Assembly: GCF_001591025.1 (NCBI RefSeq)
Contig: NZ_BCTZ01000001.1
Span: 1-64,000, forward strand
Direction: 5' to 3'
DNA from: Sphingomonas soli NBRC 100801
Lineage (GTDB): Bacteria; Pseudomonadota; Alphaproteobacteria; Sphingomonadales; Sphingomonadaceae
DNA: 64,000 nucleotides
Shown: positions 57,641 to 64,000 of the stretch, piece after piece
Layout: every line of letters starts with the position of its first letter
How positions within the stretch are numbered: position 1 is the first letter of the stretch
The notes under the pieces: model-generated
What the model was told of the DNA's origin: nothing
The model's input: the letters and a program-made list of their open reading frames with translations, nothing else
Database searches by the model: none
Program-made: the position numbers and the translations under genes

Positions 57641-58669
57641 ATGCGGAGAACCGGCAAACCCACCATCAACGATGTCGCGCGGATCGCCGGCGTTTCCAAG
57701 AAGACCGTGAGCCGCGTGATCAATCGCTCGCCGCTGCTCAACGAAGATACGCGCGGCAAGGTGGAGGCCGTGATCGCGGAACTGGGCTATGTGCCCAATG
57801 TCCAGGCGCGCGCGCTGGCGCTCAGGCGAAATTTCCTGATCGGGCTGATCCACGACAATCCCAATGCCCAGATGGTGATGAACGTGCAGGCCGGCATGCT
57901 GGAGGCGATGCGCGAGACGGAGTTCGAACTGATCGTTCGCCCGATCGATCGCGGTTCATCGACCATGCTGGAGGATGTTCGCAACTTTCTGGAGCGGCAG
58001 CGCCCCTATGGCGTGATGATCCTGCCGCCCATCTCCGAGAACGACATGCTGGCCGAGGTCTGCAAGGATCTGGGCATTCGTTATGTCCGCATGGGTTCGG
58101 CTACGCTTGATGATCCCGAGCACATGGTCGCGTCGAACGATCGCGAAGTCGTGATCGAGGCGGTGAACCATCTTATCAAGCTGGGCCATCGGCGGATCGG
58201 GCTGATCGCGGGTCCTCATGGCTTCCGCTCGGCCCGCGAGCGGCGCAAGGGATTTGAAGAGGCGCTGGCGGCGGCGGATATCAAGCTTCCGCGCAGCCTG
58301 ATTGCCGATGGCAATTACACGTTCGAATCCGGGCTGGCGGCGGCGGATCGCTTGCTGGACCTGTCGCCGCGTCCGACCGCCATCTTCGCTTCGAACGACG
58401 AAATGGGCGCGGCAACGCTGCACGCGGCGCGGCGGCGCGGGATGACGGTGCCCGACGATCTTTCGATCATCGGCTTCGACGATACAGCGATCTCGCGCCA
58501 TATCTGGCCGCCAATGACGACGGTGCACTGGCCGATCATCTCGATGGCGCGGTCGGCGGCGCTCAAGCTGCTAGCCGACTTCTTCGGCGACGACATTGCG
58601 AGCGAAGAACCGTCGCTGTTCACCTCGACGCTGATCCACCGGGCGAGCGTGGCGCCACCGCGCGAATAG
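57641..58669 (+). CDS. LacI-family transcriptional regulator of the uronate locus
   Basis: The 342-residue protein starts at 57641 (MRRTGKPTINDVARIAGVSK). The helix-turn-helix TINDVARIAGVSKKTVSRVI is followed by the hinge helix (VPNVQARALALRR) and a periplasmic-binding-protein-like sugar domain (LIGLIHDNPNAQMVMNVQAG, GHRRIGLIAGP, PTAIFASNDEMGAATLHAAR, DLSIIGFDDTAISRHIWPPM). It most likely binds the ACCGGT motifs in this locus and responds to a uronate intermediate such as 2-keto-3-deoxygluconate, though the ligand cannot be read from sequence. It converges with the small cluster to its right. Confidence 0.9.
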   Translation: MRRTGKPTINDVARIAGVSKKTVSRVINRSPLLNEDTRGKVEAVIAELGYVPNVQARALALRRNFLIGLIHDNPNAQMVMNVQAGMLEAMRETEFELIVRPIDRGSSTMLEDVRNFLERQRPYGVMILPPISENDMLAEVCKDLGIRYVRMGSATLDDPEHMVASNDREVVIEAVNHLIKLGHRRIGLIAGPHGFRSARERRKGFEEALAAADIKLPRSLIADGNYTFESGLAAADRLLDLSPRPTAIFASNDEMGAATLHAARRRGMTVPDDLSIIGFDDTAISRHIWPPMTTVHWPIISMARSAALKLLADFFGDDIASEEPSLFTSTLIHRASVAPPRE

Positions 58670-58672
58670 CTT

Positions 58673-59020
58673 TTATGGTGAGACGATGGGGGCGAGATTG
58701 CCGATCGCGTAGAGCAAAAGGCCGAGAAGAGCCATCGTCAGCGACCCGAACCAGAGCATCCAAGCCCAATATCTGATGGGCTCGTCGGCACGCACGATAT
58801 CGGCGCGCCAAAGCGGAAGCTGCCCCGTGCGGAAGCCGTCGAACACATAGGCGGCCATTGCCGCGCAGAACGGCCCGCACAGGGTGATGGTCAGCCAATA
58901 TTGTGCTCCGGGCAGCCCCTCGGCGAGCAGCCGGACCGCCAGATAGAACAGGATGCTGAGCGGAGCGACGATCCCCAGCGTTACTGCCAAGCGTCGCAAA
59001 ATGGCGGGCCAGCTGTCCAT
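58673..59020 (-). CDS. Small membrane protein, unknown function
   Basis: The 115-residue protein is taken from the ATG at 59020 (MDSWPAILRRLAVTLGIVAP). Three hydrophobic segments are visible (AVTLGIVAPLSILFYLAVRL, YWLTITLCGPFCAAMAAYV and MLWFGSLTMALLGLLLYAIG). It is 23 bases downstream of an exported-protein gene and probably co-transcribed. No family is recognised. Confidence 0.65.
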   Translation of the reverse strand: MDSWPAILRRLAVTLGIVAPLSILFYLAVRLLAEGLPGAQYWLTITLCGPFCAAMAAYVFDGFRTGQLPLWRADIVRADEPIRYWAWMLWFGSLTMALLGLLLYAIGNLAPIVSP

Positions 59021-59043
59021 AGCAGGGTGCGGCGATCCGGCGA

Positions 59044-59643
59044 TCAGCGGCTGTGCGGCGGCAACAGCCCGTATAGCAATGTGCCGGTGGCTGTGCCGTT
59101 GTCGTGCCGGGTGAGCGACAGGCGCAAGCGCTGAACACTGCCGCCAGCGGAGCGCTCCCATACCCAGATCGCATCCCGCTCTCCGCCAGCGGGCTTTTCG
59201 ATCTGCTTGAAAGCGGGCGTCGCGCGTGCGGCCCAGCGATCCATTGCCTCGTCCAGCTTGCCAATCCGCGCGACGGGGACGCTTGCGCCGATCTGGCAGG
59301 CACTGCCTGCCTGCTTGAGGTCGCGCCCGACCACCAACACCGCGTCGGCAAGTTCAAACATCCACCATGACATCCCCGGTCCGCCACCAAGCGCTTCGCG
59401 ATTTTCGCCAGTGACTTCGACGAATCCAGCCTGCGTGGCTGCCTCCGCCAGTGAATCACCGCTTTCGATTACGGGGACGCAGACATCGCTGAGGCCCGCG
59501 AGAACGATTTGCCCCAGGTCGGGATCAAACTGGGCCTGGGCTGGAGCGGCGACAGACAAGAGGATCGCAGCGCCGCCGAAGACCATGCGCCGGACGAGCT
59601 TGAGAAGCTGCGAGGCTTGCGACGAGGATGGTTTCGTTATCAT
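59044..59643 (-). CDS. Exported protein of a small sphingomonad family, unknown function
   Basis: The 199-residue protein begins MITKPSSSQASQLLKLVRRM and continues with a hydrophobic signal (VFGGAAILLSVAAPAQAQ). The mature part contains LSDVCVPVIESGDSLAEAAT and a second Cys in AGSACQIGA, compatible with one disulfide. The N-terminal pattern and promoter block match those of the gene at 60779-61312, and the mature domains share a Cys / AAT(x)AGF / Cys spacing. The two therefore look like old paralogues. The function is unknown. Confidence 0.7.
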   Translation of the reverse strand: MITKPSSSQASQLLKLVRRMVFGGAAILLSVAAPAQAQFDPDLGQIVLAGLSDVCVPVIESGDSLAEAATQAGFVEVTGENREALGGGPGMSWWMFELADAVLVVGRDLKQAGSACQIGASVPVARIGKLDEAMDRWAARATPAFKQIEKPAGGERDAIWVWERSAGGSVQRLRLSLTRHDNGTATGTLLYGLLPPHSR

Positions 59644-59695
59644 GCCTGGCTGTTCAACCTCCGCTCACTGCCGGGATCATCGCCCGACCTCTGGC

Positions 59696-59733
59696 GTGAA
59701 ACCCCTTGGGCGCTCAAATGACAAACATCGTTA
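59696..59733 (-). promoter_or_regulatory. Candidate promoter, first copy of a duplicated block
   Basis: Read leftwards, TTGTCA (59719-59724) and TTTCAC (59696-59701) are 17 bases apart, as -35 and -10 boxes should be. The upstream block ATGTTTGTCATTTGAG and the GGCGTGAAA part recur at 61394-61434 in front of another gene of the cluster. Confidence 0.55.
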
Positions 59734-59801
59734 TGCCTGCATGGTCTCTGGCCAGGCCGCGATCAATCGGGATCACTTGTTGATAAGGCGACGCTGCGGC
59801 T

Positions 59802-60428
59802 TCATGGCCGCGCCGGCGTTCTGGCGATGCTGCCGCGCATTGCGCCAAAGTCTGCCTCGGCGGCCTGCCAGTGCGCACGGGCGGAGACCGCATCCTTGGC
59901 CGCTAGCGAACAGTTCAGGTTCACGGTCTGCGGACCGGCGGAAATCACCGACGCCTGACGGATGACATAGGACAGGTCCAGGCTGCGGAGCTCGGCGTCG
60001 TCCACTTCATAGGCAATTACACAGGAATGCCGTGGCCCGAGTTCGCCATCGTCGGTCGCGCCCGCAAGATAGGTCTTGTTCTTGAGCGGTTGGCCGGGCG
60101 GATATGCAGTATCCTCGCATACGGAGCGAACCCATTTGGGGTCGGCCCCCAATTCCTGGATCGTGGCGGCGACGTCTTCGCCATCGGGCCCGGTTCGTGC
60201 CGAACAGATGCGGTAGATTCCTCCCGTGCTGCTTTCGACCGAAAGGCCGGTCTGCCCGTCGGTTCCCGGCGGCCCGACAGCAAAGCCCTCGGCCAGCGCC
60301 ATGGAGAGCCCGGCTTCCTTGTCGATCCAGTGGCGCTGGGGCGTTACCTGCGCACCGTGAAAGGCAGCGACACTGGACCCGATAAACGTTGCGGCAAAGA
60401 TCGGGAGAATCGCATGCAGGAAGCGCAT
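59802..60428 (-). CDS. Exported protein of unknown function
   Basis: The 208-residue protein has a signal peptide (MRFLHAILPIFAATFIGSSV ending VAA). Four Cys residues (ICSAR, VCEDT, SCVIAY, NCSLA) probably pair as disulfides in the periplasm. Other segments are IDKEAGLSMALAEGFAVGPP and QELGADPKWVRSVC. It is six bases downstream of the next small gene and part of the leftward cluster. I recognise no family. Confidence 0.65.
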   Translation of the reverse strand: MRFLHAILPIFAATFIGSSVAAFHGAQVTPQRHWIDKEAGLSMALAEGFAVGPPGTDGQTGLSVESSTGGIYRICSARTGPDGEDVAATIQELGADPKWVRSVCEDTAYPPGQPLKNKTYLAGATDDGELGPRHSCVIAYEVDDAELRSLDLSYVIRQASVISAGPQTVNLNCSLAAKDAVSARAHWQAAEADFGAMRGSIARTPARP

Positions 60429-60434
60429 GACGCT

Positions 60435-60782
60435 TCAGCCGTCCAGCTTGCGCGCCGCGTCGAGCAGCGTGTCATTGCCCCGCAACGCACCGATGATCGC
60501 GCCGCATTTCGCCATCACGGCTCGTTCCGCTTCGCCCCCCGGCAATTTCGGTTTCAGCTCGCCGAGAGCAGGGTCTCCCGTCACGCCAAGCTCCGCCAGC
60601 CGTTCGACGAACATGAGCGAGAATTCGCGGAGCACCCGGACATTCACTTCGTCCGACCCTTTGGCCGCCGCCCGATCCGCGAGAAGATCGAAGCCGGCCG
60701 CGCACAGGCGGACGCTATCCTTGTTACCAAGCAGCTCGACATGGCCGGAGAGCAGCAAGGCTGTGGCCAGAACGATCATCAT
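60435..60782 (-). CDS. Small exported protein, unknown function
   Basis: The 115-residue protein begins MMIVLATALLLSGHVELLGN, a short signal-like segment. It continues with RLCAAGFDLLADRAAAKGSD, a helix-rich body (REFSLMFVERLAELGVTG) and a second Cys (AKCGAIIGALRGND). It overlaps the upstream gene by four bases (ATGA). No catalytic motif is seen. It may be an accessory subunit of the neighbouring exported proteins. Confidence 0.65.
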   Translation of the reverse strand: MMIVLATALLLSGHVELLGNKDSVRLCAAGFDLLADRAAAKGSDEVNVRVLREFSLMFVERLAELGVTGDPALGELKPKLPGGEAERAVMAKCGAIIGALRGNDTLLDAARKLDG

Positions 60783-61312
60783 ACGCCCTCCCGCGAAAGT
60801 GTGAGGATCAAGATTCCATTGGGCCCCTTTTTCAGCTCAAGGAACGCTCCGCCGTTCGATCCGTCAAGGAGCACGTCCTTTTGCAGAGCCGGGGGATAAT
60901 GATCGAGGTCGAAGCCGTACCTCGCGCCCCATTGGGCAAGGTGATTGGCGATGGGGATGGGTTGGGCGTCCGGACCGATCAGAAGGACTTCGCAGCTAAA
61001 TCCATCGGCCTTGATCGCCACGATGTTCGCACCCTGGTTCGCGTTCCATGTCTTTCGAGCTGGATCGTGCGAGAAGCCCGCGGCTTTGGCCTCGTTTCCG
61101 TTGATGTCGAAACCGCCGCGAACGGCAGAGCGGCAGAGATCGATGGCCGCGTCGATCCTGGTGGTAATCGCCGATTGCGCATGCGCGAGCGCGGGAGATG
61201 CGAGCGACAGCGCGAGAATCCCGGTTAGCGGCACGATTGCCCTGATTCGCCTCACGTGCCGGACGAGGTTCGGCATTTTCGAGGATTGCGAGGAAAGTGG
61301 CCTCTTCATCAT
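60779..61312 (-). CDS. Exported protein, likely paralogue of the 59.0 kb gene
   Basis: The 177-residue protein starts at 61312, 7 bases after GAGAGG. The N-terminus MMKRPLSSQSSKMPNLVRHV resembles that of the gene at 59044-59643. A signal ends PALAHAQS. The mature domain has LCRSAVRGGFDINGNEAKAA, GF, and FSCEVLLIGPDAQPI, with two Cys residues that could pair. It is the first gene of the leftward cluster and has the second copy of the duplicated promoter block upstream. Confidence 0.7.
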   Translation of the reverse strand: MMKRPLSSQSSKMPNLVRHVRRIRAIVPLTGILALSLASPALAHAQSAITTRIDAAIDLCRSAVRGGFDINGNEAKAAGFSHDPARKTWNANQGANIVAIKADGFSCEVLLIGPDAQPIPIANHLAQWGARYGFDLDHYPPALQKDVLLDGSNGGAFLELKKGPNGILILTLSREGV

Positions 61313-61396
61313 GCGCTGTCCTCTCACTCCCGCTCATTGCCTTGATGGTCACGGTTCCGGTCCGTTGCATCTCGGTCCGCTTGGCACCGGTGTGGC

Positions 61397-61485: not shown

Positions 61486-61541
61486 TGGTGCCGGTTGCAG
61501 GAATCGAACCCGCGACCTTCGGTTTACAAAACCGCTGCTCT
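61486..61541 (-). other. 3' fragment of tRNA-Thr(TGT), likely attachment site of an integrated element
   Basis: On the minus strand this reads the last 56 bases of a tRNA-Thr with CCA. The anticodon arm has TTTTGTAAA (anticodon TGT), the T-arm is GCGGGTTCGATTCCTGC, and the acceptor 3' strand AACCGGC-A-CCA is intact. The 5' half (acceptor 5' strand and D-arm up to GGTA) is absent; the sequence on its right is unrelated. A 3' tRNA remnant is what integrases leave at the far end of an element. By its orientation the element would lie to the right and the chromosome to the left. Confidence 0.75.
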
Positions 61542-61638
61542 CGGGTTCAAGGTAGACCAGCAACACAGCCGAAACCCGCAGAAATCCACGGGTTTTTCAC
61601 TATTAGGCGGGCCCGACTGCGGGGTCAAGGTCATTTTT

Positions 61639-61748: not shown

Positions 61749-62390
61749 CTATTTCGTCGAAGATGATGCCAAGCCATGCGGCGTTGCGTCCAGATCGGGC
61801 CTTCCGGTCGACCAGCGCTCCGCCAGGTTCTCGCGATAGAATTCATCCGCGGCAAATGCCGGGCCGAGCGCGAGAAGTGAGCCGCCTTCGAGCCAAAGTG
61901 CACAGTCTTCCGGGTGCAGCAGCAGCGGCATGGTGCGGCTCAGCGGCTCAACAGTCGGGTTGGCCCCGACCAGTACGCCAGCGCAGCGTTCATCGATGCA
62001 AAGGCCGGCCCAAGCGGCCAGTGGCTGGTCCCAAAGGCCGATCCAACTTCGCGTGCAATGGTCTCCCGTCGCTACCGGATAGGCAAAGGACTCCAAGATG
62101 ATCAGACAGCGAGATAGCTGGGCGGCCCCATCCAGACGGCTGCCGCTTCGCCAGAAGTCCCGCGAATAGAGCGCTCCCCGCTGCTTGGGCGGAACCGGCC
62201 TCGTGAAAGTCTCGGACGATAGACCCCAGCGCATCGCGGTTAGACGGCGCATGCCGCCTTCTTCCACGACGACCGGAACGGCGTCGCCGGTCCAGATCGA
62301 TTCTCGCCAGACAAGACCGGGATCGGGCACCGCTGCCGACAGCTGCGCCATTTCCAAAGTGGAGCCCCGCGCACGCAACAAGCAGGTCAT
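61749..62390 (-). CDS. Divergent SRAP-domain (YedK/HMCES-like) protein lacking catalytic residues
   Basis: The 213-residue protein starts at 62390 (MTCLLRARGSTLEMAQLSAA), 7 bases after AGGAG. It aligns with the SRAP fold: RRLTAMRWGLS for the conserved WG(L/F) segment, LSRCLIILESFAYPV where active members have RCLIP...(F/W)YEW, DQPLAAWAGLC for the PF-(x)n-AG(I/L)W strand, and PLSRTMPLLLHPEDCALWLE where active ones have H-x-RMPVIL. The Cys is codon 3 rather than 2, and the active-site Asn, Glu and His appear replaced. SRAP proteins normally cross-link to abasic sites in single-stranded DNA. This one may only bind DNA. It lies inside the element boundary, downstream of a nuclease-like gene. Confidence 0.72.
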   Translation of the reverse strand: MTCLLRARGSTLEMAQLSAAVPDPGLVWRESIWTGDAVPVVVEEGGMRRLTAMRWGLSSETFTRPVPPKQRGALYSRDFWRSGSRLDGAAQLSRCLIILESFAYPVATGDHCTRSWIGLWDQPLAAWAGLCIDERCAGVLVGANPTVEPLSRTMPLLLHPEDCALWLEGGSLLALGPAFAADEFYRENLAERWSTGRPDLDATPHGLASSSTK

Positions 62391-63801
62391 GCTCAAGCTC
62401 CTGCTGATCGCGCGCGGGATTGGACATCGCCCAGGCCGGAAGCTGCCCCAGATCATTCAGCTCGGCGCGCAGCATCCCGTCAAACACCTCCGGGAAAAGC
62501 CGTTTCGCCGCGGACCAGATCGCGTGTCCCGGCCGGATCTGCGCGGCACGATGTCGGGCCTTGGCGAGCGCCGTTTGGAGGGATGCGCGCGACAGCCATT
62601 CGTGCGCCATGGTGTTCGCAAGCATTGTCTCAATCAGCGTTGCGTAAGGCATATAGGGGGCTGCGGAGAGGCGCGCATTGAGCATGGCCAATAGCGCGCC
62701 TTCCTTGTTGTACCGGCTCACATAGACCCGGTCGCGCCCATCCTTTGCCGATCGCGCGATTGAAAAGAGCATCGCAGCGACCTCCAGGAAGTGCGGGACG
62801 CTGCGGATCTCATTCTCGTGCCAGAAGGCATCCTTCCATGCGCTGAGCTCGGGAACATAGGATCGGATCGATGCCCACAGAGGATCGAATCGCTCGGCGA
62901 CTTTCGGGTTGGCGAAATCGAAGGGCGCGCTCGTTTTGAGCGCTTCCCACCATTTCTCGCGGGCCTCCTGGCAATAATGTAGCAGGCGCGGTGTCCTCCG
63001 GTCCTCCAGGAACACCGAGCGGCCCGAACCGCGATCAAGGTCGTCCAGCCGAGCGATGCGTGGCTTGAGCCAACCGGAGTCCCCGTCGAGCCATGTCGAT
63101 AGCCGCAGGCCATTTGCCGCGATCGACGCATCGAACGCAGCGACATCGAACAGAAAGGCGTTACCGCGCTGGAGTGTAATCACATCGCGAAAGCCTTGAG
63201 GGAGGTCCGCCTCCAGCTCACGAAATACCCAGATGAGCGACACGCCCTCCGCTTCATAGTGAAGGTGTCGTGCCGCGATCTCAAAGGCGAAGGGCTTCGA
63301 GAGCTGCACCTCGAACGCGAAGCGGCCTATGCCCTCGATCTCGGCATAAATGTCCGGATAGCAGCCACGGTCTTCGATGGCGGGTTTCAGATAACGATCG
63401 ACCGACACCTTGGTGCAGCGCGGATCCCTCTCGAGCAACTCGGCGATCGTGTCGCATATCCAGCGATGCCGGGCGGATTCCTGATGACCCTGATATTGCG
63501 CCGCGCGGGCGTTGTCGGGGATAAGGTTGCGTCCCTGATACCATGGGCAATCATCGACGGCGGCACCAACATAGTGCTGGAACAGCGGGACATTCCCATT
63601 GCCGGTCGTCTGCGCGCGAATATAGACCGCGCCTTGGCACAGACGGCACCGCGCCAGCGGCCGCTTGGGTTCGCGCCGGTGTCTCAGATTGATTTCAGCG
63701 CGCAAATGCTCCCACGCGGCCGGCTCCATCGCCATGAGCGCGCCGATCGCGACCGCTCCGCGCGGTAGTTCGAAATCCGCAATCTCGACCGTTCGCTGCA
63801 T
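61990..63801 (-). CDS. CoiA/DUF6035-like protein with PD-(D/E)XK nuclease-type domain; abnormal C-terminal tail
   Basis: The start at 63801 (MQRTVEIADFELPRGAVAIG) follows AGGAGG. An N-terminal zinc-ribbon-like part (ARCRLCQGAVYIRA...DCPW) precedes a PD-(D/E)XK-like core: RGCYPDIYAEIEGIGRFAFE, then VQLSKPFAFEIAARHLHY and a GVSLIWVF strand. The Asp and E-x-Q pattern is that of the competence-protein CoiA group. The middle 250 residues are helical (VYVSRYNKEGALLAMLNARL). Beyond about 62400 the frame enters the SRAP gene and the product turns into Arg/Ser-rich noise for some 130 residues. This suggests a lost stop or a frameshift near the 3' end; the true protein is probably near 470 residues. 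Confidence 0.7.
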   Translation of the reverse strand: MQRTVEIADFELPRGAVAIGALMAMEPAAWEHLRAEINLRHRREPKRPLARCRLCQGAVYIRAQTTGNGNVPLFQHYVGAAVDDCPWYQGRNLIPDNARAAQYQGHQESARHRWICDTIAELLERDPRCTKVSVDRYLKPAIEDRGCYPDIYAEIEGIGRFAFEVQLSKPFAFEIAARHLHYEAEGVSLIWVFRELEADLPQGFRDVITLQRGNAFLFDVAAFDASIAANGLRLSTWLDGDSGWLKPRIARLDDLDRGSGRSVFLEDRRTPRLLHYCQEAREKWWEALKTSAPFDFANPKVAERFDPLWASIRSYVPELSAWKDAFWHENEIRSVPHFLEVAAMLFSIARSAKDGRDRVYVSRYNKEGALLAMLNARLSAAPYMPYATLIETMLANTMAHEWLSRASLQTALAKARHRAAQIRPGHAIWSAAKRLFPEVFDGMLRAELNDLGQLPAWAMSNPARDQQELEHDLLVACAGLHFGNGAAVGSGARSRSCLARIDLDRRRRSGRRGRRRHAPSNRDALGSIVRDFHEAGSAQAAGSALFAGLLAKRQPSGWGRPAISLSDHLGVLCLSGSDGRPLHAKLDRPLGPATGRLGRPLHR

Positions 63802-64000
63802 CCCGACCCTCCTGGTCAGCACTGCCTGTTATTGCGTTCCCGTCTCAATCGACTCGCTACTTTGTTCAATATTTGTTCTACTATCCGTTCGATGAGTCAA
63901 GCAGGTGAGGGGGAGGCGAGCGGAGAACGTCCGGCGCGCTCGCTCCGCGTTTGGCGAAGCTGATCAGTTCGCGTCGAGCGAGGATGCATCCACGATGGTG
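63802..64000. other. Upstream region at the window end
   Basis: This is 199 bases with an AT-rich stretch (63860-63890) that is unusual for this genome and could hold a promoter for the leftward nuclease-like gene. No coding frame could be supported here; any gene to the right is cut off. Confidence 0.3.

Follow-up and report, generated by a model that had tools for sequence, protein, structure and literature searches.

A putative LexA-controlled operon joining a DUF6035/CoiA-type nuclease-like gene and a catalytically depleted SRAP gene at the end of an integrative and conjugative element of Sphingomonas soli

In Sphingomonas soli NBRC 100801, two genes at the border of an integrative and conjugative element (ICE) encode a divergent nuclease-like protein of the DUF6035/CoiA type (gene A) and a protein of the SRAP fold that has lost its catalytic residues (gene B). 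With a probability of about one half, we read them as a LexA-controlled accessory operon in which A would be an anti-phage or anti-element nuclease and B its catalytically dead SRAP companion. The operon, with its SOS box, appears to be local and decaying, and its distribution does not support a widespread two-gene system. The DNA analysed (hereafter the window) comprises the first 64,000 nucleotides of contig NZ_BCTZ01000001.1, and positions beyond 64,000 are given on the contig.

The border of the element is marked by a split tRNA gene. The window contains the 3' 56 nt (nt 21-76) of the host tRNA-Thr(TGT) at 61486..61541 on the minus strand, the 5' part being missing, and this remnant is 100% identical to intact copies in four relatives. 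It is matched by the Rfam tRNA model at 61489-61561 (34 bits). The other part of the tRNA, nt 1-38, lies at contig positions 149358-149321, and the two parts have in common an 18-bp att core, AGAGCAGCGGTTTTGTAA (61524..61541, minus strand), repeated at 149338-149321. The outer flanks of the element correspond to the two sides of an intact site in another Sphingomonas genome, G047 (85% and 78% DNA identity). The split tRNA, the att repeat and this intact site therefore delimit an element of about 87.8 kb (contig ~61.5-149.3 kb), with A and B at its attR end. A tyrosine integrase is encoded near the far end (147818-149101), and a TraG/TrbB-type conjugation T4SS, whose TraG and TrbB were checked by Pfam, occupies 134.6-146.3 kb. 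With an integrase, att repeats in a split tRNA and a conjugation T4SS, the element has the predicted make-up of an ICE. The suggestion of an earlier note that the two genes sit directly inside a tRNA remnant at an island edge is thus borne out on both counts. The element also carries its own, different tRNA-Thr(TGT) (contig C1 147692-147763, 1.6 kb inside the integrase end; L002, L175), which apparently replaces the host tRNA that was split without restoration. Upstream of A, the 3' end of a RepB/ParB-type gene falls within the window (63964..64000, minus strand; contig 63964-64857); this gene is the first of a cluster that continues with a second RepB/ParB-type gene and a large serine recombinase gene. 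At 58620-61327, between a LacI-type gene and the tRNA fragment, the window has several consecutive minus-strand ORFs whose products look like related secreted proteins or lipoproteins, and which are absent at the corresponding site of G047.

Gene A lies on the minus strand at 62385..63801, starts with an ATG at 63801 and has a conserved part of 472 aa. The open frame around it is longer, running from a GTG at 63822 to 61990 (610 aa), and below 62385 it reads through gene B out of frame. We rejected this length because the homologues end near residue 465-476 of the ORF and because the last ~130 residues, which lie over B, have a lower GC content at the third codon position; this is the one correction needed, and the gene positions and strand given earlier hold. 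The Pfam matches of A are borderline or weak: DUF6035 (E 1e-4, borderline) and CoiA_nuc (E 0.01-0.02), the families named for it from the letters alone, and DUF7830. For DUF6035 (PF19500), the ORF and the protein score 21.8-22.4 bits and the genome scan 24.5, around the curated cut-off of 22.6, and for the CoiA nuclease-like family (PF06054) A scores 16.0 bits, below the cut-off of 20.3, which a relative in L072 passes with 23.0 bits. Within the A family, all 17 members match CoiA_nuc and DUF7830 weakly, and 15 of the 17 match DUF6035.

The zinc-site and active-site residues of A are conserved. In an alignment of A with six NCBI-annotated DUF6035 proteins, 18-27% identical to it, the zinc-ribbon-like part (63547..63648, minus strand; C52-x2-C55 ... 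H76 ... C85) and the PD-(D/E)XK core (63304..63354, minus strand; P149-D150 ... E164-x-Q166-x-S168) are invariant, and so is H112, which together with E108 is carried by the helix upstream of the core. All 13 sequences compared, including those with as little as ~20% identity, keep the residues of the zinc site, and the nuclease-core residues, whose conservation had been proposed as a test of the assignment, are invariant over the same range. The AlphaFold model of A is of moderate confidence (pLDDT 74, pTM 0.49) and places a PD-(D/E)XK core at residues 106-260. When compared with known structures, as the earlier note had advised, it matches the restriction-endonuclease-like protein 9y1l (probability 0.99), EcoT38I and VRR-NUC, and further Can2 (Z 8.4), Hjc, BspD6I and Cdn1, no single Z score being strong alone. 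A search of the PDB by sequence with the A profile gave no meaningful relative. Fold, residues and profiles agree in assigning A to the PD-(D/E)XK superfamily, with the moderate confidence of the model, and we regard it as a divergent, predicted DUF6035/CoiA-type nuclease-like protein with an invariant zinc site and active site.

Gene B (61749..62390, minus strand) encodes 213 aa starting MTCLLRARG at 62390, in a frame open from 62456. Its product exceeds the cut-off of the Pfam SRAP family (PF02586; 28.9 versus 27.1 bits). In the SRAP protein YedK, Cys2 makes the abasic-site cross-link, Glu105 and His160 act as acid-base catalysts and Asn75 matters less (PMC9436759). B and its close relatives have Thr in place of Cys2, and the positions of Asn75, Glu105 and His160, aligned to canonical SRAPs, are occupied by Ser, Tyr and Ser/Leu. 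No thiazolidine cross-link is therefore expected, and B would be a SRAP fold without the catalytic set, i.e., "catalytically dead", which upholds and sharpens the label "non-canonical" given to it before. A phmmer search of B against the PDB found no match, and the profile of its family found 2aeg, the closest solved relative, and 2f20. The single-sequence structure prediction reached a pLDDT of 32, and the fold of B is assigned from its sequence. The nearest relatives of B (69%, 43%, 43% and 42% identity) include the copy in G047, two copies beside AbiE genes and an integrase (G598, G056) and one in a conjugation region (G261). The wider clade to which B belongs in sphingomonads starts MSRL or MTRL (Ser/Thr2), and two plasmids have an SRAP of this type paired with a canonical MCNL SRAP beside ImuA, ImuB and DnaE2. 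The arrangement of a Ser2-type SRAP, devoid of the nucleophilic Cys, and a canonical MCNL SRAP by imuA-imuB-dnaE2 is found at L134:4001-6082, at L135:3884-5227 and at many Sphingomonas loci, and several of the Ser2-type genes are preceded, at a distance of no more than ~70 bp, by a GTTC-N7-GTTC box. Elsewhere in the S. soli genome studied here (L084:7304-8498; contig C13 207303-208497), a canonical SRAP (MCNDYRLE) has as its divergent neighbour an SRAP with a shortened N-terminus.

The two genes overlap head-to-tail on one strand behind a single SOS box. This box, GAACAAATATTGAAC (63864..63878, minus strand, read on the coding strand), lies at -77 to -63 from the ATG of A, i.e., 62 bp before the gene. 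It is a perfect match to GTTC-N7-GTTC, the consensus of LexA sites in alphaproteobacteria (PMC3091678), and also fits the Caulobacter consensus TGTTC-N6-TGTTC (PMC13384398). The lexA and recA loci of this genome have boxes of the same type near the gene starts. Such boxes have a background frequency of 1 per 27 kb, and a shuffle test over the whole window (2 sites versus 1.5 expected) does not single this one out, so that the case for the box rests on its position and conservation. The same 15-mer precedes A in S. caeni, a one-base variant precedes B in G047, and the three boxes share descent; in the alignment of these upstream regions, the conserved parts are the LexA box and two short flanking blocks. 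We conclude that the operon is probably SOS-induced, under putative LexA control. The flanking blocks (TTGACT and GCGAGTCG, within 63840-63900) hold inverted GACTC/GAGTC arms and are perhaps a second regulator site or a -35 element. Most other A homologues have no LexA box upstream, which makes SOS control a local trait or acquisition.

The pairing of A and B has left traces in at least three Sphingomonas loci and is older than this genome. In S. caeni, the DNA homology covers A and ends ~17 codons into B, where foreign sequence is fused in frame. In G047, A is missing, and B is directly preceded by a block that has 76.7% DNA identity to the one upstream of A in S. caeni. These half-pairs imply that a common ancestor within Sphingomonas, or a shared element, had both genes side by side, and the loss of each half once argues against strict mutual dependence. 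Beyond these loci the pair dissolves: in a profile search of ~46 distinct A/DUF6035 places, only the one described here had an intact SRAP next to A, which led us to reject a conserved CoiA-SRAP module across genomes. The expectation that homologues of both genes would recur as neighbours thus failed for the intact pair and survives in the remnant halves at two further Sphingomonas loci. Our literature search found no paper that joins CoiA or DUF6035 with SRAP, and the papers found on SRAP and anti-phage functions describe no such pairing.

Gene A itself is widely distributed on mobile elements, and its neighbours make it a defence-island gene. It occurs in 16 of 396 genomes of the order (a few of these being fragments or remnants), at 18 GTDB loci and on 27 plasmids. 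In three genomes of another genus (L036, L037, L038), what is left of A is an identical N-terminal stump of 28 residues, the gene apparently having been broken by a transposase gene. We found A neither in phage records nor in IMG/VR contigs, and B was absent from IMG/VR and had one weak phage match; an origin from phages or viruses was rejected on these grounds. Neither A nor B matches any model of PADLOC 2.0.0 (E <= 10) or NCBIfam, so that the advised search of defence-gene collections drew a blank for the two genes themselves; it was productive for the surroundings of A and confirmed the defence flavour first suspected for the pair. At E <= 1e-10, 121 de-replicated neighbour genes matched 229 PADLOC models and 121 control genes matched 5, a ratio that is indicative, since PADLOC has many models per family and the neighbours include plasmid loci, which the controls, taken from chromosomal stretches of genomes carrying A or B, do not. 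Genes beside A homologues include AbiE, SIR2 and HerA, a CBASS phospholipase, SbcCD and genes labelled from sequence as Qat-like and Zorya-like. At L005, L072 and L179 (three genomes, two genera), only a few kb separate SbcCD-type genes from A/DUF6035 genes, and in two cases the SbcCD-type genes diverge from a WYL gene located before A. The most frequent immediate neighbour is a winged-helix-like gene of ~104 aa, directly upstream of A at 9 of the 18 loci (L008, L010, L011, L013-L017 and L020), whose product, we presume, resembles the small regulators of Mu-like phages. A Hypoth_Ymh gene stands directly downstream at 8 of the 18. At L007, L013 and L130, A homologues adjoin TraG/TrbB-type conjugation genes.

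The main rival of the operon reading takes A and B for unrelated cargo that happens to be adjacent: A would be a defence nuclease that is stand-alone or works with the winged-helix-like protein, its recurrent partner, and B an island offshoot of the SRAP paralogue associated with ImuAB-DnaE2. It is a serious contender, if a somewhat doubtful one. It accounts for the single intact pair among the ~46 places and for the relatives of B at 42-43% identity, which have no A beside them and are accompanied by AbiE genes and an integrase or belong to a conjugative island; one of these genomes, G056, does have both genes, 2.4 Mb apart. It does not account for the overlap of A and B on one strand behind one SOS box, for the same promoter stretch found directly before B in G047, or for the traces of adjacency in three species. 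In another, unlikely alternative, the operon would work for the element and not against phages, its products processing or protecting the element's DNA when SOS triggers transfer or re-integration: the place of the operon at attR and the homologues of A that lie by conjugation genes or on plasmids would suit it, whereas the transfer systems of the islands and plasmids that carry A differ, and defence genes, not transfer genes, make up most of its neighbourhood.

Two further explanations have still less to recommend them. An overlapping gene pair on a mobile element recalls toxin-antitoxin modules, and A could be a self-damaging nuclease with B as its antidote, both repressed by LexA. The company that the A family keeps with the toxin-antitoxin-like AbiE genes, and the existence of LexA-controlled toxin-antitoxin systems in Caulobacter (PMC13384398), speak for this idea. 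We judge it decidedly unlikely because each gene persists where the other is lost: in S. caeni A is intact and B is reduced to ~17 codons, and B is missing from nearly all other loci that have an A homologue. A role of A in DNA uptake and recombination on the model of classical CoiA, which the weak CoiA_nuc similarity of every family member might suggest, is the most improbable of these readings, given the score of A below the CoiA_nuc cut-off and its place on mobile elements in defence company, with no competence genes seen beside it.

In the operon reading that we favour, A and B would together be a small accessory operon, situated where the ICE ends in attR. LexA, whose binding we infer from the box, would repress it, and DNA damage should induce it, whether this arises from replicating phages, from genotoxic stress or from element transfer. 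A would act as a zinc-containing effector of the PD-(D/E)XK DNase type, with phages or incoming elements as its presumed targets, as expected for a defence-island family. B would keep the SRAP fold and probably an affinity for single-stranded or damaged DNA, the covalent cross-link to abasic sites being impossible, and would be an optional accessory of A, not an obligate partner. A more specific form of cooperation, in which the dead SRAP would be a sensor or marker of DNA that is single-stranded or damaged (e.g., at phage replication forks) and would direct or restrain the CoiA/DUF6035-type nuclease within a LexA-controlled immune operon, is a speculative idea that we hold to be improbable. 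If true, it would amount to a defence triggered by DNA damage, in which a fold of SOS repair is reused as a non-covalent sensor. Leaving cooperation aside, the analysis places an uncharacterised and widespread family of DUF6035/CoiA-like mobile-element nucleases firmly among defence-island genes, and suggests the SOS response as a testable trigger for it in one lineage. It also shows that mobile elements and SOS operons maintain SRAPs in which every catalytic residue is missing, so that the SRAP fold probably has a role beyond the covalent protection of abasic sites.

Parts of this operon resemble known systems. A protein with a CoiA domain was recovered among anti-phage systems in a functional screen in E. 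coli (Vassallo et al. 2022, PMC9519451); as far as the accessible part of that report goes, defence was shown for the E. coli protein, no SRAP partner is described, and the feature that it has in common with A is the CoiA-type domain. B belongs to the fold family of YedK and HMCES and differs from both in all four of the residues that they have at positions 2, 75, 105 and 160. The SRAP pairs associated with ImuA-ImuB-DnaE2 include, in their Ser2-type member, the wider clade of B, several with LexA boxes, whereas B lies on an ICE beside a nuclease and away from imuA, imuB and dnaE2. A resembles the DUF6035 (PF19500) and CoiA nuclease-like (PF06054) proteins, with which it has in common the N-terminal zinc site, the PD...E-x-Q active site, a length of ~470 aa and the mobile-element and defence context. 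It differs from them in being borderline for the Pfam models and in its divergent, helical C-terminus, and the SOS box and the neighbouring SRAP gene are special features of this lineage of Sphingomonas.
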